64,000 nucleotides of DNA from a virus. The notes beneath the pieces are model-generated. The model did not search any database, had not been told where the DNA came from, and saw nothing but the letters and a program-made list of their open reading frames with translations. The position numbers were made by a program, and so were the translations under genes. Positions 4,013 to 64,000 of this stretch are shown here, piece by piece. The stretch is taken from positions 254,165-318,164 of IMG/VR virus record IMGVR_UViG_3300042465_005589. One strand, written 5' to 3'. Positions within the stretch are counted from its first letter, which is position 1. Every line of letters begins with the position of its first letter.

Positions 4013-4013
4013 A

Positions 4014-43541: not shown

Positions 43542-44315
43542 TTATCCGGCGATATTCCATGGTTTAGTTCCATTAAGTTTCTCTTCATAATTTGAAATAA
43601 AAATTTCATTTATTTTTGAAGATAACGGACTAACACCATTACATGTTATCCCACTATTATAACTGGCAATTGACATAGACGAGCCTTCACCGGAACCAAT
43701 TGTTTCTAAATAGTTGTGACGAATATCAAACTCTTCAGTAAACACAGATAGGTCATCCCATATTTTAAAAAAATTTTCTTCAGTTCCTCTGTCTTTTTTA
43801 ATAATCCATTTACCTTCCAAATAGTGTTCTATATAATCTTCAGGATGACCTTCATGAAACACTTTTTTTAATTTAAAACCATTTTTTTCCGCAAAATCAA
43901 TACCTTCTTGACCATATTTAGTATTTCTTCTACCTTGTACTTCACAAGTACTAACATCGTCTGAACAATATGTGAACCCTATATTACCAAACGTTGCAAA
44001 AATATGTAGACCAGAGTTTATATCTGATAAAAAATCAATGTTATCAGTATCTTTAATAAAGACATCAGCATCTAAAAAAACTGCAGTGTCATAGTATTTT
44101 AAACATTCTTTCATCACCACTTTTTTTTCATGAAATGAAAAATATGGTTTAGTATATTCTATTACTGTTAACAAATTATTTGGTGTATAATGTTCCGGAG
44201 AATTAGTCATTACAAAAATATGATGTCCCATATCATTTATTTGTTTAATTAATGAATCTCCAAATGTTACATATTTTTCACCATATGTTAATGTACAAAA
44301 CGCAAAATTACTCAT
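43542..44315 (-). CDS. Glycosyltransferase, GT-A fold
   Basis: The protein has 257 residues from the ATG at 44315, which overlaps the upstream stop in an ATGA junction; a start 7 codons earlier (44336) would lie deeper in the upstream gene. It begins NFAFCTLTYGEKYVTFGDSL, a typical GT-A first strand, and carries DxD as Asp82-Ala-Asp84 in TAVFLDADVFIKD. A histidine-rich YFSFHEKK region and a His-Pro-Glu (EGHPEDYIEHYLEG) segment follow. It probably transfers a sugar to a polysaccharide or protein; the specificity is not visible. Translational coupling points to joint function with its neighbours. Confidence 0.7.
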   Translation of the reverse strand: MSNFAFCTLTYGEKYVTFGDSLIKQINDMGHHIFVMTNSPEHYTPNNLLTVIEYTKPYFSFHEKKVVMKECLKYYDTAVFLDADVFIKDTDNIDFLSDINSGLHIFATFGNIGFTYCSDDVSTCEVQGRRNTKYGQEGIDFAEKNGFKLKKVFHEGHPEDYIEHYLEGKWIIKKDRGTEENFFKIWDDLSVFTEEFDIRHNYLETIGSGEGSSMSIASYNSGITCNGVSPLSSKINEIFISNYEEKLNGTKPWNIAG

Positions 44316-46042
44316 ATTTCCTCTATTAATGTCCAATCTTTATCCCCATACCAATCATAAGTGTGGTAAATTTTAATTTTATCTTTTTTATCAAAAAATA
44401 ACTCATTTGTTTTTTCACTATTAAAGTGATATACAACATCATTAATTTTAAACTCATGGTCTAAAAACTCAACATTATTTTTTAAATTCCAATTAAAATT
44501 TAAAACAAATAGATTATCATTTAATTCAAAAATTGAATAACTTAAATCTATCTTGTGTTCTTTAAATTGAATGTCTGATACCTTTTTTGAAATTAGTTTA
44601 CCCTCACTTAATTGTACTGTTTTTCTATCAGGAAAATTTTTAATATAATCACTAATAAACCCACCATAAAAGTTATATTTAATATCTTCACCAAGTTTAT
44701 TAGATATGTTGTGTGAATTAATTTTAAGTCCGCTTTTAGCTACACATAAACCAACAATATTACCCTCACCAACACCTATTTTATCCACCCCATTAATCAT
44801 TTCATGAGCATCTAAAGATGATGATAATTCTTTCCATGTATCTAAAAAAACTTTCCATTTATTTTCTTCTTTTGAAACAATTAAAACACCTTCTTGATAG
44901 TGATAAGCATCATTTATTGGGATATTTAATTTTTCGGATATACTTAACGCTAATTCACCATAACCCACAACCCTATTAGTAATGTCTTTACTTTCAAAAA
45001 AACCTCCGGAAGGTCTTGATATTAATCCCCAATCCCAAGATGGGTGAAATCCTGGTTTAATTATTCTAATTAAATTGGTGTAACAATTTTTATAATTTTT
45101 AAAAAATAATCTACAATCAGAATCAACATATACAACAGCATCTTCATATTTAAATCCCTCTTCAAAACAAATTAATTTATCATTATATGAGAATTTTTTA
45201 TTAGGATAATCTACTAATATAACATTATCTAAAGAATCATAGAATTCTTTTTGGTCTGTAACTATTAATATTTTTTGTTTAAAATAATTTAAATCAAAAG
45301 CCAATTTAACCGCGTTTTTATTAGCTGTTTCACCATGAGCAATAGTTGTAAAAATATAGTTTTGTTTTTTATAGTTTTTTTTACAACTATTATTTCCTTG
45401 TATATCTGTTGTAAAATCATTTTTAACTTTTACAATTCTTTCATTTGAAACATACACATTGAATTCAGATAATCTAATATATAATGCGGTATCAATTTGA
45501 TTATCTATATTAGTAAGTTTTTCGATTAATTTTTTTGCACCATTTGGGGATATTATTAAAGATGGTAAACACGTTACAATACCTTTAGGTATAGATAAGT
45601 TTTTACTAAATGGATGTTTTTCTACATCAGTATCACCATGACCTAAATAACAATAATCAAAATCATTAGGTAATTCAGATAAAATCATCTTTAATTTATC
45701 ATCAAATGAATTATCAATTTCCACATCATCTTCAAAAGTTATTGCAGGAGAATCTAATTCTGATATTTTTTGAAATAAATTAAGATAACTCATTAAAACC
45801 CCCAAACCACCTTGAGTCATTGATAATCCCCAAGCGGTTACTGTATCCATTAAAATATCTTGGATTGCATTTTCACTTAATATACCTTCTTTTAAAGTTC
45901 TTGGATTTATAGTAGACCCATCAACTGCGTCAAACCTTTGATAAATATTTTTTAAAATAGTACTTTTATTTAATTGATTTTCTATAAATAACTTCCTATC
46001 CGTTCTTTTTTCTAAATTAATATAAAAACAATGTTTTAGCAT
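44312..46042 (-). CDS. Two-domain glycosyltransferase (GT25-like plus GT-A)
   Basis: The first 210 residues of this 576-aa protein resemble GT25 (LPS beta-1,4-galactosyltransferase/procollagen galactosyltransferase family): HCFYINLEKRTDRKLFIENQ, RFDAVDGS, GVLMSYLNLFQKI, then the metal site ITFEDDVEI and the late ISPNGAKKLI. A second GT-A domain (about 220-490) has YVDSDCRLFF as its DxD. The C-terminal 80 residues are the module shared with the 367-aa enzyme (IYHTYDWYGDKDW). GT25 members act on lipo-oligosaccharides in bacteria and on collagen hydroxylysine in animals; a collagen-like fibre is encoded nearby, but a link is only a suggestion. Confidence 0.75.
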   Translation of the reverse strand: MLKHCFYINLEKRTDRKLFIENQLNKSTILKNIYQRFDAVDGSTINPRTLKEGILSENAIQDILMDTVTAWGLSMTQGGLGVLMSYLNLFQKISELDSPAITFEDDVEIDNSFDDKLKMILSELPNDFDYCYLGHGDTDVEKHPFSKNLSIPKGIVTCLPSLIISPNGAKKLIEKLTNIDNQIDTALYIRLSEFNVYVSNERIVKVKNDFTTDIQGNNSCKKNYKKQNYIFTTIAHGETANKNAVKLAFDLNYFKQKILIVTDQKEFYDSLDNVILVDYPNKKFSYNDKLICFEEGFKYEDAVVYVDSDCRLFFKNYKNCYTNLIRIIKPGFHPSWDWGLISRPSGGFFESKDITNRVVGYGELALSISEKLNIPINDAYHYQEGVLIVSKEENKWKVFLDTWKELSSSLDAHEMINGVDKIGVGEGNIVGLCVAKSGLKINSHNISNKLGEDIKYNFYGGFISDYIKNFPDRKTVQLSEGKLISKKVSDIQFKEHKIDLSYSIFELNDNLFVLNFNWNLKNNVEFLDHEFKINDVVYHFNSEKTNELFFDKKDKIKIYHTYDWYGDKDWTLIEEI

Positions 46043-46048
46043 ACTTTA

Positions 46049-47296
46049 TTATAAATTACCGGTTATTCTATCACGCCAACCTTTTGACGTACTATATGGC
46101 CATACAACCCAATATTTTGGTTTTGATGTTGTTTGGAAATCTCTCCAAACTTTACAATATCCGTCATGGTCTTTCATCATAGCATTTATCTCATTAATAT
46201 CGGCATCTTTTCTATAAAGAGTTTCATCATTTTCATTATGAAATGCTACAACCCAAAATTCATAATCTTTTTCCGGTACTTGTTTAAATGAGATATCGAT
46301 ACAATGTTTGAAAATACTCGCAAAACTTGATAACCATTCTTCTTCCGTCTCATATATGGTAGGGTTTGGTGCGTATTTTTTATCTAAAGTATATTGTTGG
46401 ACAGCTCTATTTGAAAATTTAAGACCTGAATAAATTTCATAATCTTTTAATGTTCTTTCAGTTCCAAATCCATACTTACTAAAATCCATAGTAACTTCTT
46501 CACCGTCCATTCCAAAAAGCTGTCTATTCTTTTTGTGAGATAACTCATTCTTTTTACCCCACTCTTTATCATCATCCCATTGTTTGGTTCTACCCTTACG
46601 AGTATATTCGTGCCAAATAACGGTCTTATGTGGGTGGAATAAATCATATCCGTGAGTGAATGCTCTAACAGCAATTGATATTTCTTCCCCGTGAAAATAA
46701 AATTCAGGGTCGTGTTGAACCTCCACACTAAATTGACCTAATGTGAATGCCATGTGAGCAGAATAAAAACGAGAAGTGATTGGTTGTTTTAATTTTTCCC
46801 AACCAGGTATTGTTTCAGGTAAGAAGAATACCGCACCTTCAGGAATGAATCTATCAAAAGACATTCTCCACGGCTCTTTAACTCTACCTGCCGGGTCATT
46901 CTCGGGGTCAAATGATGAAACATACCCCGTTAACAAAGGTTTCTTAAATCCTTTCTTTTGAAGTTGTTTAATCATTTTGATTAAGGTAGTATCCCAATCT
47001 TTTTCAAATCTCATATGAGAATCTATTTGAAGTGTATACTCCTCACCATCATATAATTGTTGTACTTGATTTCTTGCCCAACAAACACCTTTAGCGTCGG
47101 AATACAAAACATCCTTAACTCTAAATCGTTTATCTTTTTTAAATTTTTCTAAATTATCAAACCCATCTTCAGGGTGATATTGACGACATATACCTATTCT
47201 TAAGTTTTTAGGTCTTTTAGCATTTTCAATCATGCTATCAAGTGTCGGGATAAGCTGGGGGTCACGATAGGAGGCTATCTGTACAAATATTTTCAT
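46049..47296 (-). CDS. GlcNAc-type glycosyltransferase (PF11397-like)
   Basis: A 415-aa protein matching the GlcNAc glycosyltransferase family that includes the Skp1 polypeptide GlcNAc-transferase: IFVQIASYRDPQLIPTLDSM at the N-terminus, CWARNQVQQLYDGEEYTLQI, a DxH metal site (Asp92-Ser-His94 in QIDSHMRF), then EFYFHGEEISIAVRAFTHGY and VIWHEYTRKGR. Family enzymes characterised in eukaryotes attach GlcNAc to a hydroxyproline of a protein; bacterial and viral ones are mostly uncharacterised. It is next to genes for Thr/Pro-rich surface proteins and 6 bases before the GT25-like gene. Confidence 0.82.
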   Translation of the reverse strand: MKIFVQIASYRDPQLIPTLDSMIENAKRPKNLRIGICRQYHPEDGFDNLEKFKKDKRFRVKDVLYSDAKGVCWARNQVQQLYDGEEYTLQIDSHMRFEKDWDTTLIKMIKQLQKKGFKKPLLTGYVSSFDPENDPAGRVKEPWRMSFDRFIPEGAVFFLPETIPGWEKLKQPITSRFYSAHMAFTLGQFSVEVQHDPEFYFHGEEISIAVRAFTHGYDLFHPHKTVIWHEYTRKGRTKQWDDDKEWGKKNELSHKKNRQLFGMDGEEVTMDFSKYGFGTERTLKDYEIYSGLKFSNRAVQQYTLDKKYAPNPTIYETEEEWLSSFASIFKHCIDISFKQVPEKDYEFWVVAFHNENDETLYRKDADINEINAMMKDHDGYCKVWRDFQTTSKPKYWVVWPYSTSKGWRDRITGNL

Positions 47297-47435: not shown

Positions 47436-49364
47436 TTAGTTTATAAAAGAAAGAAATTTTTTATTACTACTACTGTAAAGTACCCAAGAAGCACCATAGT
47501 TAGAAGATATTTGAGTTTGAAACGCAATTGTAGTTCCAAGCATATATTGTCCAGAATTAGATATATCTGTTTTGATAATAGAACTACCAAAAGTATTCGT
47601 AGTCCAACTAACACCAAAATTATTTGTGGTAATAACTCTATTATTAGTAGCACCTACTATTCCATATCTTCCATCATAACTTAACTTAAGGTCTTCATTA
47701 AAATCTTGACTAACAATACTCATTATTGACCAAGTTGCACCAAAATCAGTACTTCTGTAACTATTTCCAACTGCTGAAACTAACATCATATATAATCCAT
47801 TTCCTGATACTGCAACACCTTGAAAATTACTAGAATTTGCGGCTGATTGCGAAGGAAAAATATTTAATGTTATATTTGTAAAAGTTATTCCATAATTTGT
47901 AGATAGTAAAACATATTTTAATGAACTTGAATCATAACCTGCAATAATAACATATTGACCATCCCACGATACACTAGATTGGATAATTAATGTAAAAGCC
48001 ACAGGAAATGATGCAGGACTCCAACTTGTTCCAAAATCACCACTTCTTAAAAGAGTGCCTCCTGATTCAACATACATATATTGTCCATTTTTAGATATTG
48101 AAGTCTCCCCAATAAAACCAGAACCCACCCCAATAGGTGTTGAGTAAGAATTACCATAATCTGAAGATATCTTTACTTGTAAAGGAGAAGTTGCTCCTGC
48201 AGCCGCTATAGAGTATTGGTAATTATCGGAAGCATTTATTCCATAATTTGTAGTGACGCCAACAGACGTTAGTTGACTTATTTCAACAAGTGTATCATCA
48301 TATATTCTAAAAAATGGAGATGAATTAGATGTACCTAACATATCCCCTACTCCAAAAACAGGTGTAGGTATTGATGTTGGAGTAGGTGTTGGAGTCGCAG
48401 TTGAGGTTGGTGTTGCCGTTGGTGTAGGTGTAGATGTCGGAGTAGATGTCGGAGTTGATGTTGGCGTCGCAGTCGGTGTTGGTGTGGATGTCGGAGTAGA
48501 TGTTGGTGTTGATGTTGGTGTTGCCGTTGGAGTTGATGTTGGAGTCGCAGTTGGTGTAGGTGTAGGTGTTGGAGTCGCAGTTGGTGTTGCCGTTGGTGTA
48601 GGTGTTGGTGTAGGTGTAGGACAAGGATTTAAAATTTGACAAGTATTAATATCCGGTTGACTATTTAATAAAATGTATGAATACTGATTCGTTGAGGTTA
48701 TTGGTGATATTGATGTTACACAACCAACATATCCACTACTTTGAACATAATAAACCCCTGACAATGGAGAATAAGATGTAGGAATATTATAAACTATAAA
48801 AGTGTTTGATGGGTTACAACTATCTTGGAAATACCCCACAATAGGTGCTAATGTTTGTGTTGGAGTAGTTGTTGGTGTTGCAGTAGGTACTGGTGCACAA
48901 GTATTATCAACACACACCTCATTAATCAGAATGTTTACCCCCACATCAGCAGAAGGTAATCTACCGCAATAATATAAGGTAGTCCCTGATTGAATAACAC
49001 TGTTTAACACAACGTTATTACATTGGGTTAAACTAAAGTTTAAAGTTCCCGAAGTTGTATTTTCAAATGATATACAATTACAAACAACAACCATTGTTGG
49101 AGTCGGAGTTGGTGTTGTTGTTGGAGTTGGTGTTGGTGGTAATGGACAACTTTCTAATAAAAATTCTTCACACCCTATTGAATCAGTCACAACAACTAAA
49201 ACCTGACTAGCACCTTCTAATTGAGAAGGGATTGGAAGTTCTAATGTTGGAGGAACAGAAACAACACCGGTTGCAACCACATAACAATACGTTAATGTTA
49301 AATCACATATTGATATATCAAATGGTGAGTGTCCGTTTAAACTGGTTATTTCTATTACTTGCAT
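47436..49364 (-). CDS. Tail adhesin with mucin-like Thr-Pro tract and Asp-box beta-propeller
   Basis: The protein has 642 residues from the ATG at 49364 ([11 protein letters not shown]). The N-terminal half consists of small Cys-containing beta domains joined by short Thr-Pro linkers. A long (TP)n/(TS)(TA)P tract follows (about 250-335). The C-terminal 300 residues contain six Asp-box motifs ([54 protein letters not shown]), the hallmark of sialidase/VPS10-type beta-propellers, so a six-bladed propeller that binds glycans is likely. No catalytic sialidase residues can be assigned. It is probably a receptor-binding or decoration protein. An upstream in-frame start at 49409 adds 15 hydrophobic residues but lies across the promoter-like box. 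Confidence 0.75.
48355..48625 (-). repeat. Thr-Pro coding tandem repeat
   Basis: Degenerate 6- and 12-bp units (plus strand GGTGTT/GGAGTC/GGTGTA) encode about 85 residues alternating Thr/Ser/Ala with Pro. The repeat is codon-diversified, which would limit slippage. Confidence 0.85.
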
Positions 49365-49392
49365 TACAATAAATATAGTTAGAATTATTTTA

Positions 49393-49404
49393 CCATAAAT
49401 ACTT
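49393..49404 (-). promoter_or_regulatory. AAGTATTTATGG box before the adhesin gene
   Basis: The minus strand reads TTAAGTATTTATGGTAAAATA, 28 nt before the ATG at 49364. It lies in the divergent 104-bp region shared with the rightward decoration operon. Confidence 0.5.
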
Positions 49405-49468
49405 AACAATATTAAAGTTTACTATGGAACTTTATTAGTAATTTATTATTTTTATAATAAAAAAAAAT

Positions 49469-52400
49469 ATGTCGTTAAAGATTAACCATTACGATTTTAT
49501 TGAAATTGGTACGTCAGATTTTGATACTTTAATTGAAACCTCCAATGACAATACTGTCGGTATTAGTATTGAACCTATAAAATATTACATAAATAGATTA
49601 CCTGATAAACAGAATATTATTAAAGTCCAAGCGGCATTATCAACAACAGATGGTGAAGTCGATGTGTACTATATTGAAGATTCTAAAATAGAAGAGAATA
49701 ACTTACCTTGGTGGGTTAGAGGAAGTAACTCAATAAATAATCCTCACCCTTTTGCTATTAAAGAATTAGGTGAAGAATTATACAATAGTTTGGTAACTAT
49801 TGAAAAAGTTCCAACAATTAGTTGGGAAACATTAATTAAAAGATATGATGTTGGTTCAATCGGTTATCTAAAGATTGATACTGAAGGTCACGACCATATC
49901 ATCTTCAGAGATTTTTTAAACTATTGTAAAGAACATTCATTTCCAATCCCAAACAAAATAACACTAGAATATCACGATGGTGTGTCAAACAAAGTTGAGA
50001 TTGATAAATTAATATCGGAATTACCTGAATATCAAATTATCAAACACATTAGTGATATTACATTAATGAAACCTCTAATACCGAGAGTAATACATCAAAC
50101 ATATAAAACTAATGATTTACCAACAGAAATAAGTGAGGTAGTTCAAAGGTTAAAAGATATGAATCCAACTTTTGAGTATAAATTCTACAACGATAACGAT
50201 TGTGTTGAATTTATTAAAGAAAATTATGATGAAGAAACTCTTAATCTTTATTTAAGTATTAACCCAAATTATGGGTCGGCTAAATCTGATTTTTTTAGAT
50301 ACCTTTTAATGTATAAAGTTGGTGGTGTTTATTTGGATATTAAAAGTTGTACTACTAAACCTTTGGAAGAAGTTTTATTACCAACCGATGAATATCTATT
50401 AACTCATTGGGAAGGATTGGATTGGGCAGATGAATTAAAATATTATTTTGGCGAATTTCAAAATTGGCATATTATCTGTAAACCAAATCACCCATTTTTA
50501 AAAAGGGTAATTGAAATTGTTAAAGACAATATTAAAAATTATATTGGTGGGTCGGATAAATATTCTGTGTTAAGATTGACAGGTCCAATCGCTTATAGTA
50601 AAGGAATTATTGAACTTATATCTCAACATAAGAAAAATAGTGTTGATTCACCCGTTAGAGAATTTTTATTAGAAAACGAGATTGGGTTACAATATATGTC
50701 AACCACAATACATCATCATAATCTAATTGATAGTTCGTATTCAAAAAGAGAACCTTTAATTTTAAAAGATAAGGTTGAGAAATCATATCTATTATATGCA
50801 ACCGAAAACTATTTGGATGTTGCAAAGATGTGTATTAAATCAATCCGAGAATATAGTGATTTACCAATTTTCTTATATCTTATTAATTCTAATAAAGTTG
50901 TGGATATTAAAGATGTTGCAACCATAAATTGGAATGTAGAATTAGTTGATGATAATTCTGATAGATACATTCAAGAGGGTGACAATTTTTACATTAATAG
51001 AACCAATAAAACGATTTATAACATCTTAATACAAAAACCATTAATCACTAAAGACGTTTTATCTAAATACACTAAAACGGTTGCATTTATTGATTGTGAT
51101 TCAATTGCAACACCATATGTTGATAGAATCTTTGACTTATACGATAATGATAAAGATTACCCTTATTTTGTTGAAGGGATTTATGATTTTCTACACGTAG
51201 GTGAACGAGGTGGTGCTATGACTAGAGATGATATGTCAACCACGTTGGAACATCCGGCGTGTGAATTATTTAATGTTAATCAGTATGTTAGAGAAAAATA
51301 CCGACAAACAGGTTATTATGTTGCAAATGAAAAATGTATTGATTTTTTATACGAATGGTATCAAATGTGTTCTCACCCTGAAGTATTAAATAATATACCA
51401 TATTATGCGGCATATAATGAGGAGACCATCCTAAATGTGTTATTGTGGAAAAAATTAATATTTGATGGATTACCTTACATTTACGCTAACGGAAATTTAG
51501 AATTGATTGATAATATCTATTCAAACTACAATATTAGTGAAGAAAGTTTATGGATTAAGATTCCAAATAAGAAAGATGATTTGTTATTTATTCACGGAGA
51601 AAAGAACATTTTAGAAATGGGTAAAATAATATCAAAAATTAAAAACCATAATAAAGAAAAAATTAAAGTATTATTCTTGGCACCACATCTGTCAACCGGA
51701 GGGATGCCATCATTCCTATTAAAACGAATCGAATCGTTATTAGAATATTATAAAGATAAAACGGAATTATTTGTTGTGGAATATTCTAACCATAGTGACC
51801 ACTATGTGGTTCAAAAAAATAGAATTAAAAAATTAATACCTCCATCACATTTTTGGACGTTAGGTGAAGATAAAAACGAATTAAAGAAAATTATTGAGGA
51901 AAATTATTTTGACATAATTCACTTGGATGAAATGATTGAAGATTTTGATGCTCATAATAAATTATCAAATGAGTTAATGAATTTCATTTATAAAAATGAC
52001 CGAACTTGGAGAGTAGTGGAAACTTGTCATAACGTTGTATTCCAACCGGAAAAAGATAAAGTGTTTCATCCTGAAGCATACGCTTATTGTTCACCATTTC
52101 ATAAAGAATCAACATTCTTGAATATGCCATCGTATGGTGAAGTAATTGAATTTCCGTATAACCCTACAATTGTAATAGATAAAGAAAGTAATAAAGAAAA
52201 ATTAGGTTTAGACCCAAATAAAATTCACATTATAAATGTTGGATTATGGACACCAGGTAAAAATCAAGAAGAAGGTGTTGAGATTGCAAAATTAGTTGAG
52301 GGTATTCACCCTGAATTAGAATTCCATTTCATTGGGAATCAAGCACCTAACTTTCAAGATTATTGGATACCAATTATGAAAGATTTACCATCAAACGTTA

Positions 52401-53812
52401 AAGTATGGGGGGAGAAAGATAATGTTAGTGATTTTATGTGTGCCGCTGATGTATTGATGTTTAACTCAACTTGGGAATGTAATCCGTTAGTATTAAGAGA
52501 AGGTATTTCTTATGGATTAAAAATTTTAGCAAGAAACTTACCTCAATATATGGATATGTTTACACCTTATATAACACAATTGTCAGGTGATATTTTTGAC
52601 ATGAAAAATCAACTTTTAGATTTAATTAAAGATGAAAGTTATTACGAATTCCCAACATATAGAACAAAAGAATTTGCTGAAAAAAATTACGAGTTATACC
52701 AAAAAATATTAAACGAACCAATTAAAAAACAAACCATGATAGATAATGAAGTACAAATATTCCAACATTTTGTTAAAGAACCATTTTTAGAAATAAAAGG
52801 AACTGGAGACAAAGATTACAATGTTAAATTCTTTGATGAAGAAGGTATTTGTCATTATGAGAATACCATAAAACCAAATCATTGGGTTAAATTAAATAGA
52901 AGTTATTACACCAAATGGAGAGCAGTTGTTACTCGAGATAATGAGGTAATTTATGATAACACTATGGATTTAACAAATAAAAGAGTTTACATATCTTTCG
53001 ATAGTAAATCTTTAGGTGACTCGATTGCTTGGATTCCTTATGTTTTAGAATTTAAAAAGAAACACGATTGTAAAGTTATTGTATCTACATTTTGGAATCA
53101 TTTATTTGAAAATGAATATCCTGAAATTGAGTTTGTTGTACCGGGAACGACCGTACATAATCTTTATGCTATGTACACAATCGGATGGTTCTACAATACA
53201 GATAAAGAACCTGTATTACCAAACACAATACCATTACAACAAACAATTACTAACATATTAGGATTAGAATTTAAAGAGATTAAACCTAATATACACAACA
53301 CCATTCACCCAAGACCTTATCAAAAGAAATATGTTACCATAGCAACTAACTCAACAGCAGGGTGTAAATTTTGGACAAGAGAAGGATGGCAATCACTAAT
53401 TAACTATCTTCATAATTTAGGATATAAAGTAATAAACGTATCCAAAGAAGATAATCCGTTTGAAAATGCAAACAAGATTAAAAACACCTCAATTCATCAC
53501 ACAATGAATGTAATTCACCATAGCGAATTCTTTATCGGATTATCTAGTGGTTTATCTTGGTTAGCTTGGGCGTTAGGTAAACAAGTTGTAATGATTTCTA
53601 ACTTTACAAATGAGGAACATGAGTTTATGTTTAATTGTACTAGAATTGTAAATCATTCTGTTTGTAACGGATGTTGGAATAAACCTGAATTTACCTTTGA
53701 TAAAGGTGATTGGAATTGGTGTCCTGTTAATAAAGGAACTGAAAAACAATTTGAATGTCATAAATCGATAACACCGGAAATGGTTATTAATCAAATACAA
53801 CATTTACTATAA
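49469..53812 (+). CDS. Five-domain methyltransferase/glycosyltransferase with autotransporter-type heptosyltransferase domain
   Basis: A 1447-aa protein made of enzyme modules. Residues 1-200 resemble FkbM methyltransferases (YDFIEIGTSDFDTLIE, YLKIDTEGHD). Residues 204-430 are GT32/OCH1-like (IPRVIHQTYKTNDL, DxD in GGVYLDIKS). Residues 435-725 are GT8-like (DxD in FIDCDS). Residues 730-1085 are GT4/GT-B (LAPHLSTGGMPSFLL, NVGLWTPGKNQEEG). Residues 1090-1447 match autotransporter O-heptosyltransferases of the TibC type: FISFDSKSLGD-like SLGDSIAWIPYVLEFKKKH, FFIGLSSGLSWLAWALG, and the iron-finger cysteines CNGC-x15-C-x11-C ending GDWNWCPVNKGTEKQFECHK. The spacing of the first three cysteines equals that of TibC (358, 361, 377). 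It heads the rightward decoration operon. Confidence 0.82.
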   Translation: MSLKINHYDFIEIGTSDFDTLIETSNDNTVGISIEPIKYYINRLPDKQNIIKVQAALSTTDGEVDVYYIEDSKIEENNLPWWVRGSNSINNPHPFAIKELGEELYNSLVTIEKVPTISWETLIKRYDVGSIGYLKIDTEGHDHIIFRDFLNYCKEHSFPIPNKITLEYHDGVSNKVEIDKLISELPEYQIIKHISDITLMKPLIPRVIHQTYKTNDLPTEISEVVQRLKDMNPTFEYKFYNDNDCVEFIKENYDEETLNLYLSINPNYGSAKSDFFRYLLMYKVGGVYLDIKSCTTKPLEEVLLPTDEYLLTHWEGLDWADELKYYFGEFQNWHIICKPNHPFLKRVIEIVKDNIKNYIGGSDKYSVLRLTGPIAYSKGIIELISQHKKNSVDSPVREFLLENEIGLQYMSTTIHHHNLIDSSYSKREPLILKDKVEKSYLLYATENYLDVAKMCIKSIREYSDLPIFLYLINSNKVVDIKDVATINWNVELVDDNSDRYIQEGDNFYINRTNKTIYNILIQKPLITKDVLSKYTKTVAFIDCDSIATPYVDRIFDLYDNDKDYPYFVEGIYDFLHVGERGGAMTRDDMSTTLEHPACELFNVNQYVREKYRQTGYYVANEKCIDFLYEWYQMCSHPEVLNNIPYYAAYNEETILNVLLWKKLIFDGLPYIYANGNLELIDNIYSNYNISEESLWIKIPNKKDDLLFIHGEKNILEMGKIISKIKNHNKEKIKVLFLAPHLSTGGMPSFLLKRIESLLEYYKDKTELFVVEYSNHSDHYVVQKNRIKKLIPPSHFWTLGEDKNELKKIIEENYFDIIHLDEMIEDFDAHNKLSNELMNFIYKNDRTWRVVETCHNVVFQPEKDKVFHPEAYAYCSPFHKESTFLNMPSYGEVIEFPYNPTIVIDKESNKEKLGLDPNKIHIINVGLWTPGKNQEEGVEIAKLVEGIHPELEFHFIGNQAPNFQDYWIPIMKDLPSNVKVWGEKDNVSDFMCAADVLMFNSTWECNPLVLREGISYGLKILARNLPQYMDMFTPYITQLSGDIFDMKNQLLDLIKDESYYEFPTYRTKEFAEKNYELYQKILNEPIKKQTMIDNEVQIFQHFVKEPFLEIKGTGDKDYNVKFFDEEGICHYENTIKPNHWVKLNRSYYTKWRAVVTRDNEVIYDNTMDLTNKRVYISFDSKSLGDSIAWIPYVLEFKKKHDCKVIVSTFWNHLFENEYPEIEFVVPGTTVHNLYAMYTIGWFYNTDKEPVLPNTIPLQQTITNILGLEFKEIKPNIHNTIHPRPYQKKYVTIATNSTAGCKFWTREGWQSLINYLHNLGYKVINVSKEDNPFENANKIKNTSIHHTMNVIHHSEFFIGLSSGLSWLAWALGKQVVMISNFTNEEHEFMFNCTRIVNHSVCNGCWNKPEFTFDKGDWNWCPVNKGTEKQFECHKSITPEMVINQIQHLL

Positions 53813-54489
53813 TGGATTATAATAATTTTGATTGGGGATGGATGGGACAAAGTGAAGAAGGTTTGTTTCATAAAGAACAAATAACTCAAGAAACATTTGT
53901 TGATAAAATATATGAAAAGTTTTTTGAAGTTTCTGAAGGTGATATTGTTTTAGATTTTGGTGCTAGTGTTGGACCATTTACGTATAGTATTTTATCAAAA
54001 AAACCAAAACACGTATATTGTCTTGAACCAAGTGAATTTGAATTTCCCACATTAGTTAATAATACAGTTGGTCATCCGGTAACACCAATATTGAAGGGTG
54101 TCTCAAATACCAACACATATACTGAGGGTAATGACATTTATGGTGGTTCAAAACAAATGGAAGGAATTACTTTTAAAAAACTTTGTGAGTTATATAATTT
54201 AAAAACCATAGATTTTTTAAAAACAGATTGTGAGGGTGGTGAATACGATATTTTTAATGATGAGAATTTTGAATTTATTAAAAATAATGTCAAAAAAATC
54301 ACCGGTGAGTGGCATTTAGGTACACCAATTTTAAAAGAAAAATTTAAAAAATTCAGAGATACTTACTTACAATACTTTATAAATGTTGAGGTGTACTCAA
54401 TAGATGGTGTTAATGTAAAATGGAATTTAATGTCTGACAATTTTTTAGAACACTATACAGAAATAATAATACACATATATAACGTTTAA
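53812..54489 (+). CDS. FkbM-family methyltransferase
   Basis: A 225-aa SAM-dependent enzyme: SAM-binding motif I IVLDFGASVGPFTYSIL (about 45-61), acidic ribose-binding CLEPSEFEF, and the FkbM hallmark IDFLKTDCEGGEYDIF. FkbM proteins O-methylate sugars and other hydroxyl groups, commonly on surface glycans. Its ATG shares a base with the stop of the giant glycosyltransferase (TAATG), so it is tightly coupled. It may cap or modify the glycan made by that enzyme. Confidence 0.85.
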   Translation: MDYNNFDWGWMGQSEEGLFHKEQITQETFVDKIYEKFFEVSEGDIVLDFGASVGPFTYSILSKKPKHVYCLEPSEFEFPTLVNNTVGHPVTPILKGVSNTNTYTEGNDIYGGSKQMEGITFKKLCELYNLKTIDFLKTDCEGGEYDIFNDENFEFIKNNVKKITGEWHLGTPILKEKFKKFRDTYLQYFINVEVYSIDGVNVKWNLMSDNFLEHYTEIIIHIYNV

Positions 54490-54493: not shown

Positions 54494-55312
54494 ATGAAAC
54501 AAATATTTTTTAACTCTTCCCTACCTAGAAGTGGAAGTACATTAATTCAGAATTTATTAGCTCAAAATCCTGAAATTTACTCAACACCAACATCAGGGTT
54601 GGTAGATTTTGTAATCGCTTGTAAAAACAATTACAATCACTCACAAGCATTCCAAGCTCAAAATCAAGATGAAATGACCAAAGCCTTTGTCGATTTTTGT
54701 CAAGATGGTATGCAAGGTTATTTTAAAAGACTTACTGATAAACCAATCGTAATCGATAAAAGTCGAGAATGGGGAATCAATTATGGTTTATTGGAAATGC
54801 TACAACCAAACCCAAAAATTATTTGTATGGTTAGAGATGTTAGAGCTGTCTATAGTTCAATGGAAAAGAATTTTAGAAAAAACCCTCATAGAGAAAATGG
54901 GATTCAAAGACCGGCAGAATTAATTGGGACAACCTTAAACAAACGTGTTGATATTTGGGCTAGTGGTGTTCCTGTTGGTGTTGCAATTGATAGGTTATTA
55001 GATACCATTCAACAAGGTATTGCCGAAAAAATGTTATTTATTCGTTACGAGGATTTAATGAGTAATCCTGAAGAAGAAATGAGTAGAATATACAATTATT
55101 TAGAACTACCATATTATGAAGGACATGACTTTGAGAATATATCTCAACTAACTCATGAAGATGATAGAGTACATGGGATATTTGGTGACCACCAATTAAG
55201 ACCTAAATTTGAAAGAAAACCGGATGATTACATGGAAGTGTTGGGGTATGAGATATCAATGAACATTAAAAATCATTATAAATGGTTTTATGACTATTTT
55301 GGATACGTATAA
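54494..55312 (+). CDS. Sulfotransferase (PAPS-dependent)
   Basis: A 272-aa protein with the 5'-phosphosulfate-binding loop at residues 11-16 (SSLPRSGSTLIQNLL) and the 3'-phosphate-binding segment CMVRDVRAVYSSMEKN, followed by FIRYEDLMSNPEEEMSRIYN, a standard late motif of the family. It should transfer sulfate from PAPS to a hydroxyl of a carbohydrate, peptide or lipid. The APS kinase gene that makes PAPS begins 12 bases downstream. The acceptor is unknown; phage glycans or host surface sugars are candidates. Confidence 0.88.
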   Translation: MKQIFFNSSLPRSGSTLIQNLLAQNPEIYSTPTSGLVDFVIACKNNYNHSQAFQAQNQDEMTKAFVDFCQDGMQGYFKRLTDKPIVIDKSREWGINYGLLEMLQPNPKIICMVRDVRAVYSSMEKNFRKNPHRENGIQRPAELIGTTLNKRVDIWASGVPVGVAIDRLLDTIQQGIAEKMLFIRYEDLMSNPEEEMSRIYNYLELPYYEGHDFENISQLTHEDDRVHGIFGDHQLRPKFERKPDDYMEVLGYEISMNIKNHYKWFYDYFGYV

Positions 55313-55324
55313 AAAATTTTAATT

Positions 55325-55777
55325 ATGGCAATATATTGGTTTACAGGTCAGCCCGGAGCAGGTAAGACCACATTAGCAAAACAACTTAAAGATTATCTAC
55401 ACCCAAGTAATGTAATGCTTGTTGATGGAGATGACATTAGAGATGTGTTTCAGAATAAAGATTACTCTGAAAATGGCAGAAGAAAAAATATTGAGAAAGC
55501 ACAAGACATCTCATTATTTTTAGATTCAAAAGGATTTGATGTAATAGTTTCATTAGTATCTCCTTATAAAGACCAACGTGATGAATTTAAAAACAAACAT
55601 AATGTTTTAGAGTTTTACATTCACACCGAAGATATTAGAGGAAGAGAAGATTATCACGTATCTAACTATGAACCACCAACTGAAAATTTTGTGGATGTGG
55701 ATACAACAAATGTTATTGAACAAATCTCTATAGGAATAATTATAAATAAAATTAATGAATATAAATTAAATGGATAA
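55325..55777 (+). CDS. cysC: Adenylylsulfate (APS) kinase
   Basis: A 150-aa P-loop kinase: Walker A GQPGAGKTT (8-16), then VDGDDIRDVFQ and SENGRRKNIEKAQDIS, the APS-binding signature of CysC, and VIVSLVSPYKDQRDEFK. It makes PAPS from APS and ATP, the donor for the adjacent sulfotransferase. It is somewhat shorter than bacterial CysC (about 200 aa), lacking N- and C-terminal extensions. Its end overlaps the nucleotidyltransferase gene by 8 bases. Confidence 0.9.
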   Translation: MAIYWFTGQPGAGKTTLAKQLKDYLHPSNVMLVDGDDIRDVFQNKDYSENGRRKNIEKAQDISLFLDSKGFDVIVSLVSPYKDQRDEFKNKHNVLEFYIHTEDIRGREDYHVSNYEPPTENFVDVDTTNVIEQISIGIIINKINEYKLNG

Positions 55778-56180
55778 TTGGGAAAGAAAAACACACGTAC
55801 AAGCAGCATTCGCTTCATCATCGTCAAATAAAAAATATTCAATGTTTGTAGGTAGATGGCAACCGTGGCATCATGGTCATAGAGCATTAATTGACCAACA
55901 ATTGAATAGAGATAAAAATATCCTACTATGTGTTAGAGATGTTGAAATTGATGATAAAAATCCGTTTTCAACAGAATGGGTTATTGAAAACTTAAACAAA
56001 GAATTAAAAGACCTAATTGATGAAGGAAGATTAGTGATTCAGGTTATTCCGGATATAGAAAGTGTTAATATTGGTAGAGGTGTTGGATATGATGTTTATG
56101 AACATTTCCCTCCTGAGGATATTAAAAACATTTCTGCAACAAAAATTAGAGAACAAATGAAAAAAGACGGTAAACTATAA
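55770..56180 (+). CDS. HxGH nucleotidyltransferase-fold protein
   Basis: A 136-aa protein with the cytidylyl/adenylyltransferase signature FVGRWQPWHHGHRALI (HxGH at 34-37) and a C-terminal ISATKIREQM, equivalent to the ISxTxIR motif of this superfamily. ATP sulfurylase, which makes APS, belongs to the same superfamily but is much larger. Here the context (sulfotransferase, APS kinase, DUF2061) hints at a step in sulfate activation, while adjacent heptosyl-type glycosyltransferases would also fit a sugar-nucleotide role. The reaction is not determined. It is overlapped at both ends by neighbours. Confidence 0.75.
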   Translation: MDNWERKTHVQAAFASSSSNKKYSMFVGRWQPWHHGHRALIDQQLNRDKNILLCVRDVEIDDKNPFSTEWVIENLNKELKDLIDEGRLVIQVIPDIESVNIGRGVGYDVYEHFPPEDIKNISATKIREQMKKDGKL

Positions 56181-56447: not shown

Positions 56448-57146
56448 ATGGAAAATAATATTTGTGTTTATTTACATAAAAAACCTAATGGTGATATATT
56501 TTATGTGGGAATTGGGACTAATAAAAGACCTTATGAAAAATTTAGAAAAAATGTATATTGGAAAAATATAACAAATAAATACCCTAATTATATTATTGAA
56601 ATAATTGAAGAAAATTTAACTTGGGAAGATGCCTGTATTATTGAAAAACAATTAATTAGAAAATACGGTAGAAAATGTGATGGTGGTATATTATGTAATA
56701 TAACTTTAGGTGGTGATGGGGTTTATGGTTTAAAACATTCTCAAGAAACTAAAGAAAAATTAAAAAAATTATCAACCGGAAATAAAAATTGTGTTGGATT
56801 TAAACATACTGAAATAACTAAAGTAAATATGAGTAAATCTCATTTAGGTAAAATAACACCAAAAGAAGTTAGAGAAAAAATGTCAAAAACTCATTTAGGT
56901 AGACCAGGTAGAGAATCAGATAAATTAAATGTTAAAAAGGCACATATTAAAAATATAGGTAGAGTTCAAAATGAGGATGAAAAAGAAAAAAGAGCCAAAA
57001 AATTATGTAAACCAATTGAGGTTAATGGTGTAATATATGAATCAATAAAACAATATTCTGAAATAACTAATATTAACCGAAGTAAAGTTTGGCGAAATTT
57101 AAAAGACGAAAAAAATAAAAACTACAAATACATAAATAAAAAATGA
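56448..57146 (+). CDS. GIY-YIG homing endonuclease with NUMOD repeats
   Basis: A 232-aa protein with a GIY-YIG-type catalytic domain (about 1-95: NICVYLHKKPNGDIFYVGIG, EIIEENLTWEDACIIEKQLI, ITLGGDG), then three NUMOD3-like elements (LKHSQETKEKLKK, KHTEITKVNMSKSHLG, TPKEVREKMSKTHLGR), and a NUMOD1-type helix-turn-helix end (IEVNGVIYESIKQYSEITNI). This is the usual layout of free-standing Seg-like phage endonucleases. It separates DUF2061 from the GT9 gene, whose start it overlaps by 4 bases, and is flanked by a short duplication of the GT9 start. Confidence 0.88.
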   Translation: MENNICVYLHKKPNGDIFYVGIGTNKRPYEKFRKNVYWKNITNKYPNYIIEIIEENLTWEDACIIEKQLIRKYGRKCDGGILCNITLGGDGVYGLKHSQETKEKLKKLSTGNKNCVGFKHTEITKVNMSKSHLGKITPKEVREKMSKTHLGRPGRESDKLNVKKAHIKNIGRVQNEDEKEKRAKKLCKPIEVNGVIYESIKQYSEITNINRSKVWRNLKDEKNKNYKYINKK

Positions 57147-58018
57147 ATGTAATATTTTCTATAGAAGGTGGATTAGGAAAATCCATAATGGGTACGGCAG
57201 TATTAAAAGCAATAAAAAAACAATATAGTAAAGCTAACATAATTGTTGTTAGTAGTTATCCGGATGTCTTTATTGGTAATCCAAACGTTAATAAAGTTTT
57301 GACTCACGAAACAATGAGTGGGATATATGAAAAATATATCATGGGTAAAGAAGCAAAAGTATTTGTTTCTGACCCATACTCAACTTCAGATTATATTACC
57401 GAAGAAAAACATCTAATTCAGTTATGGTGTGAAATGTATGGTCTAAATTACAATGGTGAAAAACCTGAATTATTTATAAGTAAAGCCGAAAAACAATACT
57501 TTGAAGGGTTCTATAAGTTAGATAAACCAATTATGGTTATTCAACCTCATGGGGGTGCATTTAACCAACCGTTAAAATATAGTTGGACAAGAGATATACC
57601 TCAACCAATTATGCAAGACATTATAAATCATTTTGCAAATGATTACGCTATCTTACACGTTAAACGAGAAGACCAAATTATTTACGAAAATACGTTCCAA
57701 GCATTAGATTCATTTAGAAGTATTGCTGTATTATTGAGTATGGCAACAAAACGATTATTAATCGATAGTAGTGTTATGCACATTGCGACGGCATTAAATT
57801 TACCATCAGTGGTGACTTGGGTTGGGACAAATCCGGAAGTATTTGGTTTTGATATTCACAATAATATTGTTGCCAATGAACCAACCAAAACACCTGATTT
57901 AAATCATCCACATTATTCTAAATATCTGTTATTCCAAGATATTAGCACTATACCTTATAACGACCTATATGAAGTATTTGATACTCAAAAAATTATAGAA
58001 GCGATTAATCAACAATAA
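57143..58018 (+). CDS. GT9-like glycosyltransferase (heptosyltransferase family)
   Basis: A 291-aa GT-B protein: MNVIFSIEGGLGKSIMGTAV at the N-terminus (GxGD/K-S acceptor-side loop), VIQPHGGAFNQPLKYSW in the donor domain, and LLIDSSVMHIATALNLPSVV with VTWVGTNPEVFGF, the GT9 donor-binding signature (DSSxMHxAxAxxxPxVxxxG). GT9 enzymes transfer heptose or related sugars from ADP- or dTDP-sugars. This compact form resembles the C-terminal heptosyltransferase domain of the giant enzyme in the same operon. It is the last rightward gene before a bidirectional terminator. Confidence 0.82.
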   Translation: MNVIFSIEGGLGKSIMGTAVLKAIKKQYSKANIIVVSSYPDVFIGNPNVNKVLTHETMSGIYEKYIMGKEAKVFVSDPYSTSDYITEEKHLIQLWCEMYGLNYNGEKPELFISKAEKQYFEGFYKLDKPIMVIQPHGGAFNQPLKYSWTRDIPQPIMQDIINHFANDYAILHVKREDQIIYENTFQALDSFRSIAVLLSMATKRLLIDSSVMHIATALNLPSVVTWVGTNPEVFGFDIHNNIVANEPTKTPDLNHPHYSKYLLFQDISTIPYNDLYEVFDTQKIIEAINQQ

Positions 58019-58052: not shown

Positions 58053-61000
58053 TTATTTATTTATTTTATTTTGTAATATTTCAATACCATTCCAATTTTT
58101 AATAGCATCTTTATCTTTTCTTGTTCCTATGATAAGAACGTTGTATTCTAAATCCTCGTTAGCAAATATAGTTACTTTTGTTAAATCTTCATCTACTTTT
58201 CCATAAGCAATTCCAAAACCTTCTTTGGGCGTTACCCAAATTTGAGTGTTTTCATTTAGGAATTTGAAATAATCTGGCAATTCAATTTCAGCAACACCAT
58301 CTACTACTTTAACAACATATCTATAAATATTATCTCCAGCAGTAGGCGATTCAACAAACGAGTGTTGTAAGTAATGAGTTTTGTTTTTTATAGGTTCTGG
58401 GTGCTTAATTCTAAACGTACCACTTGTTTTTGATAATGCTTCAACAAATGTTGTGTTATTCGCAGATGCAGAAAGGTTACTACCAATGATATGTGAGTTA
58501 TAAAAACCAGTTATATTATTATTTGTACCACCTATAATAGAATTATACTTGGCTTTATAACCACTTGAAGAACAAATTGCATTACTCTTACCACCACCAA
58601 TAAAATTAGAACAAGTATATTCAGAATTATATGCAAATATTTGGTTGGATATTCCGCCAGTTATTGTATTATTTTGAGATTCCGTAGCGTAACTTATATT
58701 GTTTATAGCGTTATTATAACCTCCCAAAATAGAGTTACCACAAGTATAAGAAGAATTAGCACTATTTCCACAAATTGAGTTACTCTGACCTCCCCCAATA
58801 ATACTTTTGATATTATGAATCATTCTATTTGTATAACCACCACTAATGGTATTCCAAGTTCCGTAATTTGTATAATTACTTCTACCACCGCCAATTATTG
58901 AATAGTCAGAACAATTAACGTTATATTGACCACCACCAATTGTTGAAAGACCACCAGATGCAGTATTACCACAACCACCACCAATATTTGAAAGAGTACC
59001 AAAAGCAATATTGCCTTGACCTCCACTAATAGTTGATTTACTACCAGAAGCAGTATTAGATTGACCACCACCAACAGTTGAATCACTATTAGAAGCAGTA
59101 TTATTTCTACCACCACTTATTGTTGAAACTAAACCAGAAGCTACATTATATTGACCACCACCAACTGTTGATGAATTGCCAGAAGCGGTATTAGGAGCTG
59201 AATAATAAGCAGAATTATAAAAATTTAATCCGCCACCACTTACTGTTGAACCAATACCAGAAGCAACATTTGATTGACCACCACCAACTGTTGAACGACC
59301 ACCAGAAGCACTATTTTGATAACCACCTCCTATTGTTGCATATGAACTTGAAGCAGTATTATTAAAACCTCCACCAACTGTTGAACGATAACCAGAAGCA
59401 GTATTTAATCTACCCCCACTAACTGTAGAATAACCATTGGAAGCAATATTACCACAACCACCTCCAACTGTTGAATAATTACTTGAAGCAGTATTATTTC
59501 TACCACCACCAATTGTTGCGTATTGATTTGAAGCAATATTACCACAACCACCTCCAATTGTGGCATAATTAGAAGCAGTATTTTGATAACCACCAGAAAC
59601 TGTTGAAAAACTACCATAAGAAGTGTTACATCGACCACCACCAATTGTTGAACAAGGACCTGAGGCGGTATTACATAAACCACCAGCAATTACCCCTAAA
59701 GTTCCGTTAACAGAATTACTATCTCCACCACCAATAAAACCTTTTACACAAATAATACTATTTGAAATACCTCCACCAATTGTGGAGTATGATGCTTTAC
59801 TACAATTTAATTTACCACCACCAATCGTTCCAAAAGTTGATGCTGTTGAACGGTTCTGTTTTCCACCACTTATGGTTGAACCTCCCGAATCATTTTGAAC
59901 AAAATTATCGGAACCACCACCAATGAAAGATATCTCACCTTCCGAGCAGTTTCTATAACCTCCACCTATTGTTGATAATCTTCCTGCGTTAAGACAAGTA
60001 ATAGCGCCTGTCAAATTTCCCGTTGTTACATTAAATGTTCCACCTGATGAATTATGTCCAATACCACCACCAATCGTTACACCTAAAGAGCAACATTCGT
60101 TTGTAGGCGATTGAATTATATTTCTTTGACCACCAGAGATTATAGAGTGTCTTGAATTTGTAATATTACAAAAACCTCCACCAACTGTTGAATATGCCCC
60201 TGATGTAGTATTTTGAAAACCACCACCAATTGTTGAATATTGACAACAAGCTGTGTTAGATTTGCCACCACCAATAAATGAGAAAACACCACTAACTGTG
60301 TTACATCGACCACCACCAATTGTTGAACTATTGCCAGTAGCAATATTAACACTACCACCCCCTACTGTTGATTGATAACTACAAGCAGTATTGTTTTGTC
60401 CACCACCAATTGTTGAACTACTACCCCAAACAGTGTTAGATTTACCACCTCCAATTGTTGCAAAACCAATAGAAGGATTTGCAACATTACAATAACCACC
60501 TCCAATTGTATTACCACCAGACGCACCATAAACTACCAAAGAGTTTGTATAAATAAGGTTACAATTACCACCAGCAATAACATCCCCAATTTTTGGGTAA
60601 GCATTATTATAATTTTGTGATGGAAATATTCTATTATATTTACCACCACCAATAAATGAAAAATAACCAGACGCCAAATTACTACAACCACCACCTATTG
60701 TTGAATAATTACAAGAAGCAGTATTAATAAAACCACCACCAACTGTTGAAGCAATATTTGAAGCAATATTATCATAACCACCGCCAATTGTTGAATAAGT
60801 ATTAGAAGCAGTATTAGCTTGACCACCACCAATTGTTGAACGAGTACCAGAAGCGATATTAGTAACACCACCACCAATAAAAGAATAAGCACCTGTTGCA
60901 CAGTTTCTAAATCCTCCACCAATTGTTGATAATCTACCAGCATTACAACAAGCAATCGTTCCGGTTAAAGTTCCTGTAGTCGCATTAAATGTTCCACCTG

Positions 61001-64000
61001 ATGTATTGTGACCAATACCACCACCGATTGTTACACCTAACGAACAACATTCGTTTGTTGGTGATTGAATTATATTTCTATGTCCACCACCAATAAATGA
61101 CATTCTAGCGTTTGTTCTATTACAATATCCACCAGATATTGTTGAGGTATTTCCAGAAGTATTATTTCTAAATCCTCCACCAATAAACCCACAACGAGCA
61201 TTGTTTACATTACAAGAACCACCAACAACTGTTGAATCATAACAAGAAGAGGTGTTAAAACGACCCCCGCTAACAGTTGAAAAACATCCTGATGCTGTAT
61301 TGCAACAACCTCCACCAACTGTTGCTCGTCCATTAGAAGCAGTATTATATAAACCACCCCCTACTGTTGAAGAGTAACAAGAAGAAACATTACATTGTCC
61401 TCCACCAACGGTTGCACGACTACAAGAAGCGGTATTCCATACTCCTCCTCCAATTGTTGAATAAGCCCCTCCAGAACAATTTAATGACCCACCACCAATT
61501 GTTGCCCCTGTTATAGAAGCATAATTACAATATCCACCAGCAATTGTTGAATAGTTAGCCGTTGCACGGTTTCTAAATCCACCACCTATGGTTGATAATC
61601 TACCACCTTCAAAACAAGTAATTGTACCTGATAAAATACCTGTTGATGTTGTAAATGTCCCTCCGGATGTGTTATGTCCAATACCTCCACCAATAGTTGC
61701 ACCTAAAGAACAACATTCGTTTGGTGTTGATAGAAGTATATTTCTTTGACCACCACCAATTGTTGAGAATCTAGAATTTAAAATATTACGACATCCTCCA
61801 TTAATTATTGAATAATTACCACGAGATGAGTTAAAGCTACCACCACCAATAAATGTATAATCACCTATGGCACAGTTTCTAAAACCACCGACAATAGTTG
61901 ATAATTTACCTGCATCACAACAAGCAATCGTTCCGGTTAAAGTTCCTGTAGTCGCATTAAATGTTCCACCTGATGTATTGTGACCAATACCTCCACCGAT
62001 TGTTACCCCTAAAGAACAACATTCATTTGTTGGTGATTGGATTACATTTCTTTGACCTCCACCAATAAATGAGAATCTAGCATTTGTCGTATTTCCACTA
62101 CCTCCTAAAGATGCGGAATAATTTCCTGATGCAGTATTTCCCACACCACATCTAATTGATGAGTTAGAACAAGTTCCTGTTATAATAACCGCAGATGAAC
62201 CAACATTTATACCTGAAGTTCCACTTGTACCTCCGGTACCATTCGTTCCCGAAGTTCCTGATGTTGCACTTGTACCTGATGTACCGCTAGTTCCCGTTGT
62301 TCCTGAAGTTCCACTTGTACCTCCGGTACCATTCGTTCCCGAAGTTCCTGATGTTGCACTTGTACCTGATGTACCGCTAGTTCCCGTTGTTCCGGAAGTT
62401 CCACTTGTACCTCCGGTACCATTCGTTCCTGATGTTCCTGAAGTTCCACTTGTACCTGAAGTACCGCTAGTCCCTGTTGTTCCGGAAGTTCCTGATGTTG
62501 CACTTGTACCTGATGTACCGCTAGTTCCCGTTGTTCCTGAAGTTCCACTTGTACCTCCGGTACCATTCGTTCCTGATGTTCCTGAAGTTCCACTTGTACC
62601 TGAAGTACCGCTAGTCCCTGTTGTTCCGGAAGTTCCTGATGTTGCACTTGTACCTGATGTACCGCTAGTTCCCGTTGTTCCGGAAGTTCCACTTGTACCT
62701 CCGGTACCATTCGTTCCCGAAGTTCCTGATGTTGCACTTGTACCTGAAGTTCCTGAAGTACCGCTTGTCCCTGAAGTTCCTGAAGTACCATCTGTACCGC
62801 TAGTTCCCGAAGTACCATCTGTACCGCTAGTTCCTGATGAACCACTTGTACCTGAGGTACCTGTAGTACCACTTGTTCCACTTGCTCCGTTAACACCTGA
62901 AGAACCGCTAGTTCCTGATGTTCCACTTGTACCTCCGGTACCATTCGTTCCCGAAGTTCCCGTTGTTCCTGAAGTTCCACTTGTACCTCCGGTACCATTC
63001 GTTCCCGAAGTTCCTGATGTTGCACTTGTACCTGAAGTACCGCTAGTTCCTGTTGTTCCTGATGTTCCTGATGTTCCTGATGTTCCTGAAGAACCACTTG
63101 AACCTGAAGTTCCACTAGTCCCTGACGAACCGCTTGAACCTGAACTTCCACTAGTACCTGATGAACCACTTGAGCCAGATGTACCTGAAGTTCCACTAGT
63201 CCCTGACGAACCTGATGTACCCGAAGTCCCACTAGTCCCTGAGATAAATGGTGATAATGATGTTGTTACTTGAGAAACTGTAGCATCCTCAAAATAACAA
63301 GTCATTGTTTTCGATGCTAAATCACGAGCATAAAATTTAACAACAATTCTATCTGTTACAGACACATTTGTTGCTGGTACTGGTACTGAAAATAAATAAA
63401 GTTCAATTACAGTACCTTCAGTTATTGAATGTGGTACTACACTATTTGAGGCAATTAATGTTTCAGTACCACCTGTAGTTCTAACATAAATCTCAGCATA
63501 TATTTTCGGTGTACCTCCATTTGAACTCATACTCACATATTGCTCAAAATTCCAATTACCCGCAGGTATTGTTGTTACACTTGGGTCATTAGATATTGTC
63601 GCAAATGAACCAATAAATTGGTTCCCTCCACCTGTCGCGGTTAAGGTTGTTCCAGCACCAATATAGATATCTCTATCCATCACATAATATGTTGGAATTG
63701 TAGATGCCGACGATGGGTTAAAATAATATACTAATCCCGTTGAAAATCCATCTTGCCCTGACGTTCCTGACGAACCACTTGTTCCACTAGAACCTGATGT
63801 ACCACTTGAGCCAGATGTTCCCGAAGAACCACTTGAACCTGACGTACCCGAACTACCGCTTGAGCCAGATGTACCTGACGAACCACTTGTTCCACTAGAA
63901 CCTGATGTACCACTTGAGCCAGATGTTCCCGAAGAACCACTTGAACCTGACGTACCCGAACTACCGCTTGAGCCAGATGTACCTGACGAACCACTTGAAC
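58053..64000 (-). CDS. Giant collagen-like/YadA-like tail fibre, N-terminus beyond the window
   Basis: The frame stays open to the right edge, so the ATG near 63683 is internal and at least 1982 residues are encoded. From the N-terminal side: collagen-like Gly-x-y repeats (GSS/GTS, 63740-64000); a beta domain (63240-63735, with [20 protein letters not shown]); a second Gly-Thr-Ser shaft (62208-63240); and several dozen units of about 17 residues of the type STIGGGxxNTASGxx (about 58500-62150), a YadA-head-like left-handed beta-roll. The C-terminal 120 residues ([34 protein letters not shown]) resemble C-terminal tips or chaperones of fibres in Bacteroidetes phages. It is probably a trimeric receptor-binding fibre and by far the longest surface protein here. 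Confidence 0.85.
58500..62150 (-). repeat. YadA-like beta-roll repeat array
   Basis: Units of about 51 bp code for xSTIGGGxxNTASGxx-type repeats, each ending near an Asn-Thr-Ala-Ser or Cys-Asn turn. A longer module containing [17 protein letters not shown] is inserted four times (plus-strand CAACATTC marker near 60088, 61048, 61706 and 62013), each with a following TCACC or TCACL-type cysteine pair or single. Units are diversified, not identical. Confidence 0.85.
62208..63240 (-). repeat. Collagen-like Gly-Thr-Ser shaft repeat
   Basis: Nine-base [12 protein letters not shown] codon triplets are arranged in higher-order direct repeats. A 90-bp unit is repeated at 62211-62300 and 62301-62390, and a 144-bp unit recurs (marker GTACCGCTAGTCCCTG at 62461 and 62605). 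There is no proline at all, unlike animal collagen. Confidence 0.88.
63766..63996 (-). repeat. Perfect 108-bp tandem duplication in the fibre shaft
   Basis: The 108 bases at 63781-63888 are identical to 63889-63996, with identity also extending 15 bases to the left of each. It encodes 36 residues of Gly-Ser/Thr-Ser triplets and probably arose by a recent duplication. Confidence 0.9.

Follow-up and report, generated by a model that had tools for sequence, protein, structure and literature searches.

The window analyzed here, a stretch of 64,000 nucleotides from the 318-kb IMG/VR record IMGVR_UViG_3300042465_005589, contains on its plus strand a gene (49469..53812) for a 1447-aa multi-domain protein, in which an FkbM methyltransferase and three glycosyltransferase domains precede a C-terminal domain of the TibC type. 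The chain is composed of (i) an FkbM-type methyltransferase domain (residues 1-204, 49469..50080; PF05050, E 2.3e-8), (ii) a DXD sugar-binding glycosyltransferase domain (residues 205-430, 50081..50758; PF04488, E 1.2e-10), (iii) a GT-A fold glycosyltransferase domain (residues 431-742, 50759..51694; AF2 pLDDT 87), for which the sequence search gave no family match and the best Foldseek matches were GT6-type enzymes (E about 1e-7, TM about 0.5), (iv) a GT4 (group 1) glycosyltransferase domain (residues 743-1088, 51695..52732; PF00534, E 4.6e-10), and (v) a TibC/AAH-type O-glycosyltransferase domain (residues 1092-1447, 52742..53812). The fusion of a TibC-type domain into a phage glycosyltransferase, proposed in the first-pass annotation, is thus borne out, with a corrected boundary: position 52740, given there as the start, is out of frame and leads into stops. 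The stand-alone gene that is usual for TibC/AAH is not what is found here. Low dN/dS values against close relatives (0.03-0.13) show that the TibC-type domain is under purifying selection.

Downstream on the same strand follow a second FkbM-type methyltransferase gene (53812..54489; TIGR01444, 40.5 bits, cut-off 37.7), a sulfotransferase-like gene (54494..55312; PF13469, E 1.5e-22) and an adenylyl-sulfate-kinase-like gene with an overlapping nucleotidyltransferase-like gene of NMNAT or ATP-sulfurylase type (55325..56180; PF01583, E 5.5e-17, and PF01467, E 3e-5); the series at 54494-56180 is possibly a phage-borne set for sulfate activation and sulfation. A GIY-YIG / NUMOD3-type homing-endonuclease-like ORF lies within this glycosylation island at 56448-57146, and a separate GT9-like gene at 57143..58018 (+; PF01075, E 3.4e-5). 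Two candidate acceptors flank the island, namely, a fiber of 1981 aa with collagen-like and YadA-type repeats (58053..63998, minus strand; PF01391, E 3e-43), open at the record end, and, as an alternative, a Thr/Pro-rich stalk-like protein (47436..49409, minus strand), whose gene is divergent from the fusion gene at a distance of 60 bases. The window also carries genes for a tail sheath, a baseplate hub, a DnaB-like helicase, a DNA polymerase and a ribonucleotide reductase, a large myovirus-like complement that argues against bacterial DNA having been mistaken for phage.

The homology to TibC-type heptosyltransferases, suspected from the letters alone, was confirmed by both profile and structure comparisons. 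In the NCBIfam profile search, TIGR04414 (autotransporter strand-loop-strand O-heptosyltransferase) scored 282.6 bits when the full chain was searched and 287 bits with the domain alone, exceeding the curated cut-off of 200 bits, while TIGR02193 (LPS heptosyltransferase I) reached 29.4 bits, below its cut-off of 185.3; a closer fit to some GT9 family lacking the finger, against which the first-pass annotation was to be judged, was thus sought and not found. By sequence, TibC was the sole match in the PDB (E 9e-51). The AlphaFold2 model of the domain (pLDDT 90.4, alignment of 25 sequences) matched TibC with a Foldseek TM of 0.90 and a Z score of 38.1 over 347 residues, the alignment starting at residue 3 and taking in the N-terminal beta-barrel (model residues 3-72, 52748..52957, plus strand). 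The next-best structural group, the GT9 enzymes, gave TM values of about 0.5 and Z scores of 18-20.3 and aligned only from about residue 73, with the barrel excluded. GT9 LPS heptosyltransferases, such as WaaC and WaaF, share the GT-B core and a weak PF01075 match with the domain, but have neither the beta-barrel nor the iron finger (Z 18-20 versus 38 for TibC), and, with profile, TM and Z scores far below those of TIGR04414 and TibC, an ordinary enzyme of this kind was rejected. TibC and AAH (bacterial autotransporter heptosyltransferases, BAHT, TIGR04414; PDB 4rap and 4rb4), iron-binding enzymes that attach heptose to surface adhesins, on the other hand, have in common with the domain both the fold with its N-terminal beta-barrel and the GT-B core, at about 31% identity. 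Judged by sequence and predicted fold, the domain belongs to the protein O-glycosyltransferases of the TibC/AAH family, within a viral branch that diverges from the members described so far.

The residues retained in the domain (residue numbering of TibC as in PMC4358343) include Asp1184, the predicted catalytic base (TibC Asp110; 53018..53020), Thr1296 and Lys1300, predicted to bind the sugar phosphate (Thr226 and Lys230; 53354..53368), and Trp1364 (Trp305), a further predicted sugar-binding residue, all on the plus strand; the equivalent positions show no variation among 124 unique viral domains. The tryptophan belongs to the motif GLSSGLSWLAWALG (residues 1357-1370, 53537..53578), which also holds Ser1359 at the position of TibC Pro300 and AAH Ser294; AAH, with Ser at position 300, uses both ADP-heptose stereoisomers (PMC4358343). 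The cysteine set noted at first reading proved to be of the iron-finger type: C1399, C1402, C1418 and C1430 (53663..53758, plus strand) form a putative finger with a CxxC-x15-C-x11-C spacing identical to that of TibC 339/342/358/370. None of the four varies among the 124 unique viral domains or the 89 other homologs, and when the domain was shuffled 100,000 times, the pattern arose in 3 cases; both results speak against a chance occurrence.

Two elements of TibC are missing. The 10-residue beta-hairpin thumb is absent between residues 1329 and 1330 (53453..53458), and Arg286, the adenine contact of TibC, is replaced by Thr1345 (53501..53503). The stretch around the thumb, 34 residues in TibC (250-283), is down to 24 residues in the window's clade and to 30 in most members of a second viral clade, and is shortened in all 124 viral domains, 121 of which also lack the arginine (kept in 3). 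In contrast, all 89 domains from GTDB genomes, 88 of them counted as cellular and one (L106) set aside as probable phage DNA, have Arg286 and 33-34 residues in this stretch. The assignment to the family therefore stands as to homology and cysteines, but the domain is not a canonical member, since both the thumb of the dodecamer and Arg286 are lost. In TibC, Arg286Ala abolished or largely diminished the activity, and thumb mutants eluted as dimers and were inactive (PMC4358343). It follows that thumbless viral enzymes must assemble differently, and the dodecamer ring of TibC is predicted to be absent; fusion to other domains would make ring assembly less likely as well.

The first-pass annotation regarded such a domain in a phage as unusual, a view that the distribution contradicts. 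The TIGR04414-type domain was confirmed in 218 and 300 viral stretches in two IMG/VR scans, which may overlap and from each of which the best 80 sequences were used, so the domain is not rare in phages, being encoded by hundreds of viral contigs. Among the phage records that contain it are those of Microcystis phage Mel-JY01 and of uncultured phages with genomes of 636-735 kb. A second TIGR04414-related copy is present in the records of two loci, L190 (G014) and L072 (G010), the copy in G010 scoring below the curated cut-off. A maximum-likelihood tree places all viral sequences in a single group (96/96) and the cellular sequences in another (100/99), with L106 between them. The domains of Mel-JY01 (PP395634, annotated as 'methyltransferase FkbM'), LR756501 and LR756504 fall into the same viral group as that of the window, to which they are 36-47% identical; the domain is fused in the first two and stand-alone in LR756504, Mel-JY01 retains more of the thumb loop than the window domain, and LR756501 keeps Arg at position 286 and has an SGTSG collagen-like gene nearby.

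Fusion and gene order tie the domain to other glycosyltransferases. Fusions make up 76 of the 97 non-redundant full-length viral proteins, 69 of them with the domain no more than 60 residues from the C terminus, and a GT4-containing ORF precedes 11 of the 12 stand-alone viral copies checked: two of these (L072 and L080) have the same modules divided over two overlapping ORFs, and 9 of the other 10 lie behind such an ORF, the exception (L162) having none nearby. The domains from GTDB genomes, L106 excepted, belong to proteins some 400-580 aa long that have no fused glycosyltransferase domains, many of them adjoining large Ser/Thr-rich repeat proteins. L106, a contig of 4.4 kb from a bacterial MAG, encodes a GT4-TibC-FkbM fusion that has the full-length thumb loop and Arg286, and its TibC-type gene lies directly downstream of a collagen-like fiber gene with an S74 tail-fiber chaperone (both within 1-4230). 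This neighbor indicates that the contig is probably phage DNA, and a cellular fusion was rejected on the same ground; its features suggest an early branch and an apparent intermediate. Bacterial genes of the family adjoin their autotransporter (PMC4358343) much as the gene of L106 adjoins the fiber.

The large fiber gene that had been noticed near the fusion gene is indeed present. Its product combines SGTSG repeats at residues 1-590 with about 59 YadA-type repeats at residues 643-1798, and the only Pfam match was to Collagen, with no autotransporter pairing. In the 318-kb record, collagen-like matches were confined to this fiber and to an ORF at the record start (about 1-2800), both on the minus strand and each open at a record end. 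The two are probably halves of a single gene (about 2900 aa) that the assembly severed, and such a split hints at a circular or permuted genome whose ends were placed within the repeat. Across 23 contigs, taken as linear and some of them perhaps related, a collagen-like Ser/Thr-Gly stretch was found within 10 kb of the TibC-type gene in 18, versus 4.6 expected from random placement, a level reached in 0 of 20,000 randomizations; for G005, G015 and G019, the collagen positions are those among the matches listed, and the interval of G005 was set by hand from the ORF length. No collagen-like gene lay within 10 kb in 5 of the 23 contigs and in 6 of the 28 non-redundant loci of the window's clade, and gene linkage alone does not prove that the fiber is the acceptor.

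Taking these observations together, we lean towards the reading that the viral TibC/AAH branch starts O-glycans on the phage's own collagen-like fiber and that the fused domains extend and modify them; the activity, donor, acceptor, order of steps and oligomeric state of the viral enzyme are what we infer. The steps would be as follows: (i) the TibC-type domain attaches a sugar, perhaps heptose, from a nucleotide-activated donor to Ser of the collagen-like fiber; (ii) the remaining glycosyltransferase domains in that chain lengthen the sugar; and (iii) the methyltransferase domain and the nearby sulfotransferase modify it, with the thumbless enzyme acting as a dimer or monomer within the long polypeptide, not as the dodecamer ring of TibC. 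The residues glycosylated by TibC were Ser, not Thr, with N-S-G-G among the sites (PMC4358343); to such sites the SGTSG repeats of the fiber bear no more than a loose resemblance.

As to the donor, the search of the 318-kb record for ADP-heptose genes covered GmhA and HldE domain II: GmhA was not found, and the single HldE-like match (131490-131825 of the record, minus strand), in the manner of HldE domain II, scores better as a glycerol-3-phosphate cytidylyltransferase. A phage-borne ADP-heptose pathway was discarded on the strength of these two components, so ADP-heptose, if used, would be supplied by the host. Since Arg286 is missing, however, the enzyme may use a donor other than an ADP-sugar. 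Heptose is often absent from cyanobacterial LPS; taken with the missing Arg286, this puts heptose in doubt for some members at least. In a bolder form that we advance tentatively, as possible rather than probable, large phages would possess O-glycan assembly lines built as a single polypeptide: thumbless TibC-type domains would initiate on Ser of collagen-like tail-fiber repeats, in most members from a donor other than ADP-heptose, and the fused domains would extend and modify the product.

The fusion protein might instead alter the surface polysaccharide or LPS of the infected host, for instance, to keep other phages out. Such a role has been argued for GT8-rich hypervariable regions beside the tail fibers of pelagimyophages (PMC7029224), and the several further glycosyltransferases and the GT9-like gene in the window would fit it. 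We nevertheless consider it unlikely, as the nearest family targets protein Ser and has an iron finger reported to help substrate recognition (PMC4358343), LPS heptosyltransferases lack this finger and score far lower, and the linkage observed is to collagen-like fiber genes.

Within the fiber itself, the first-pass annotation took the YadA-like part to be the natural acceptor. TibC and AAH target beta-helical repeats, and the YadA-type repeats contain Ser and share a chain with the collagen-like part, so that this beta-roll, or another beta-solenoid, could in principle be recognized. The counts of neighboring genes point the other way: in the window's clade (28 non-redundant loci), SGTSG-type collagen-like repeats occur near 22 loci and YadA-type repeats near 5, and in the second set (31 non-redundant loci) the numbers are 16 and 1. 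Because the collagen-like repeats co-occur far more often, they are the likelier acceptor, and the YadA-type part appears improbable in this role. Still more doubtful is the Thr/Pro-rich stalk-like protein, even though its gene is adjacent and such proteins occur near 12 of the 28 loci of the window's clade, several of them without a near collagen-like gene; only 5 of the 31 loci in the second set have one nearby, and it was Ser, not Thr, that TibC glycosylated. That the TibC-type domain is catalytically dead and now acts in binding or as a scaffold, as the loss of two elements needed for TibC activity might imply, is very improbable in view of the low dN/dS and of the catalytic Asp, Lys, Thr and Trp, which none of the 124 unique viral domains lacks.

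If glycosylation of the collagen-like fiber is correct, the viral enzymes offer a concrete candidate for protein O-glycosylation of phage tail fibers, which could affect adsorption, fiber stability and host recognition. Two phage studies, PMC7029224 among them, read phage glycosyltransferases as acting on DNA or the host surface. TibC and AAH have been described as bacterial, stand-alone, paired with autotransporters and dodecameric; a separate and widespread viral branch, in which the thumb is lost, the nucleotide contact is changed and the domain has become the C-terminal module of multi-domain glycosyltransferases beside phage fibers, makes the family broader. A search of the open-licence literature, outside of which most subscription journals fall, returned no paper on a phage enzyme of the TibC/AAH family. 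The window contains, in addition, a second glycosyltransferase-like cluster on the minus strand (42415-47296), with members of GT25 type (PF01755) and GlcNAc type (PF11397, E 9e-72) and others without a match, which sits between two Thr-rich proteins.
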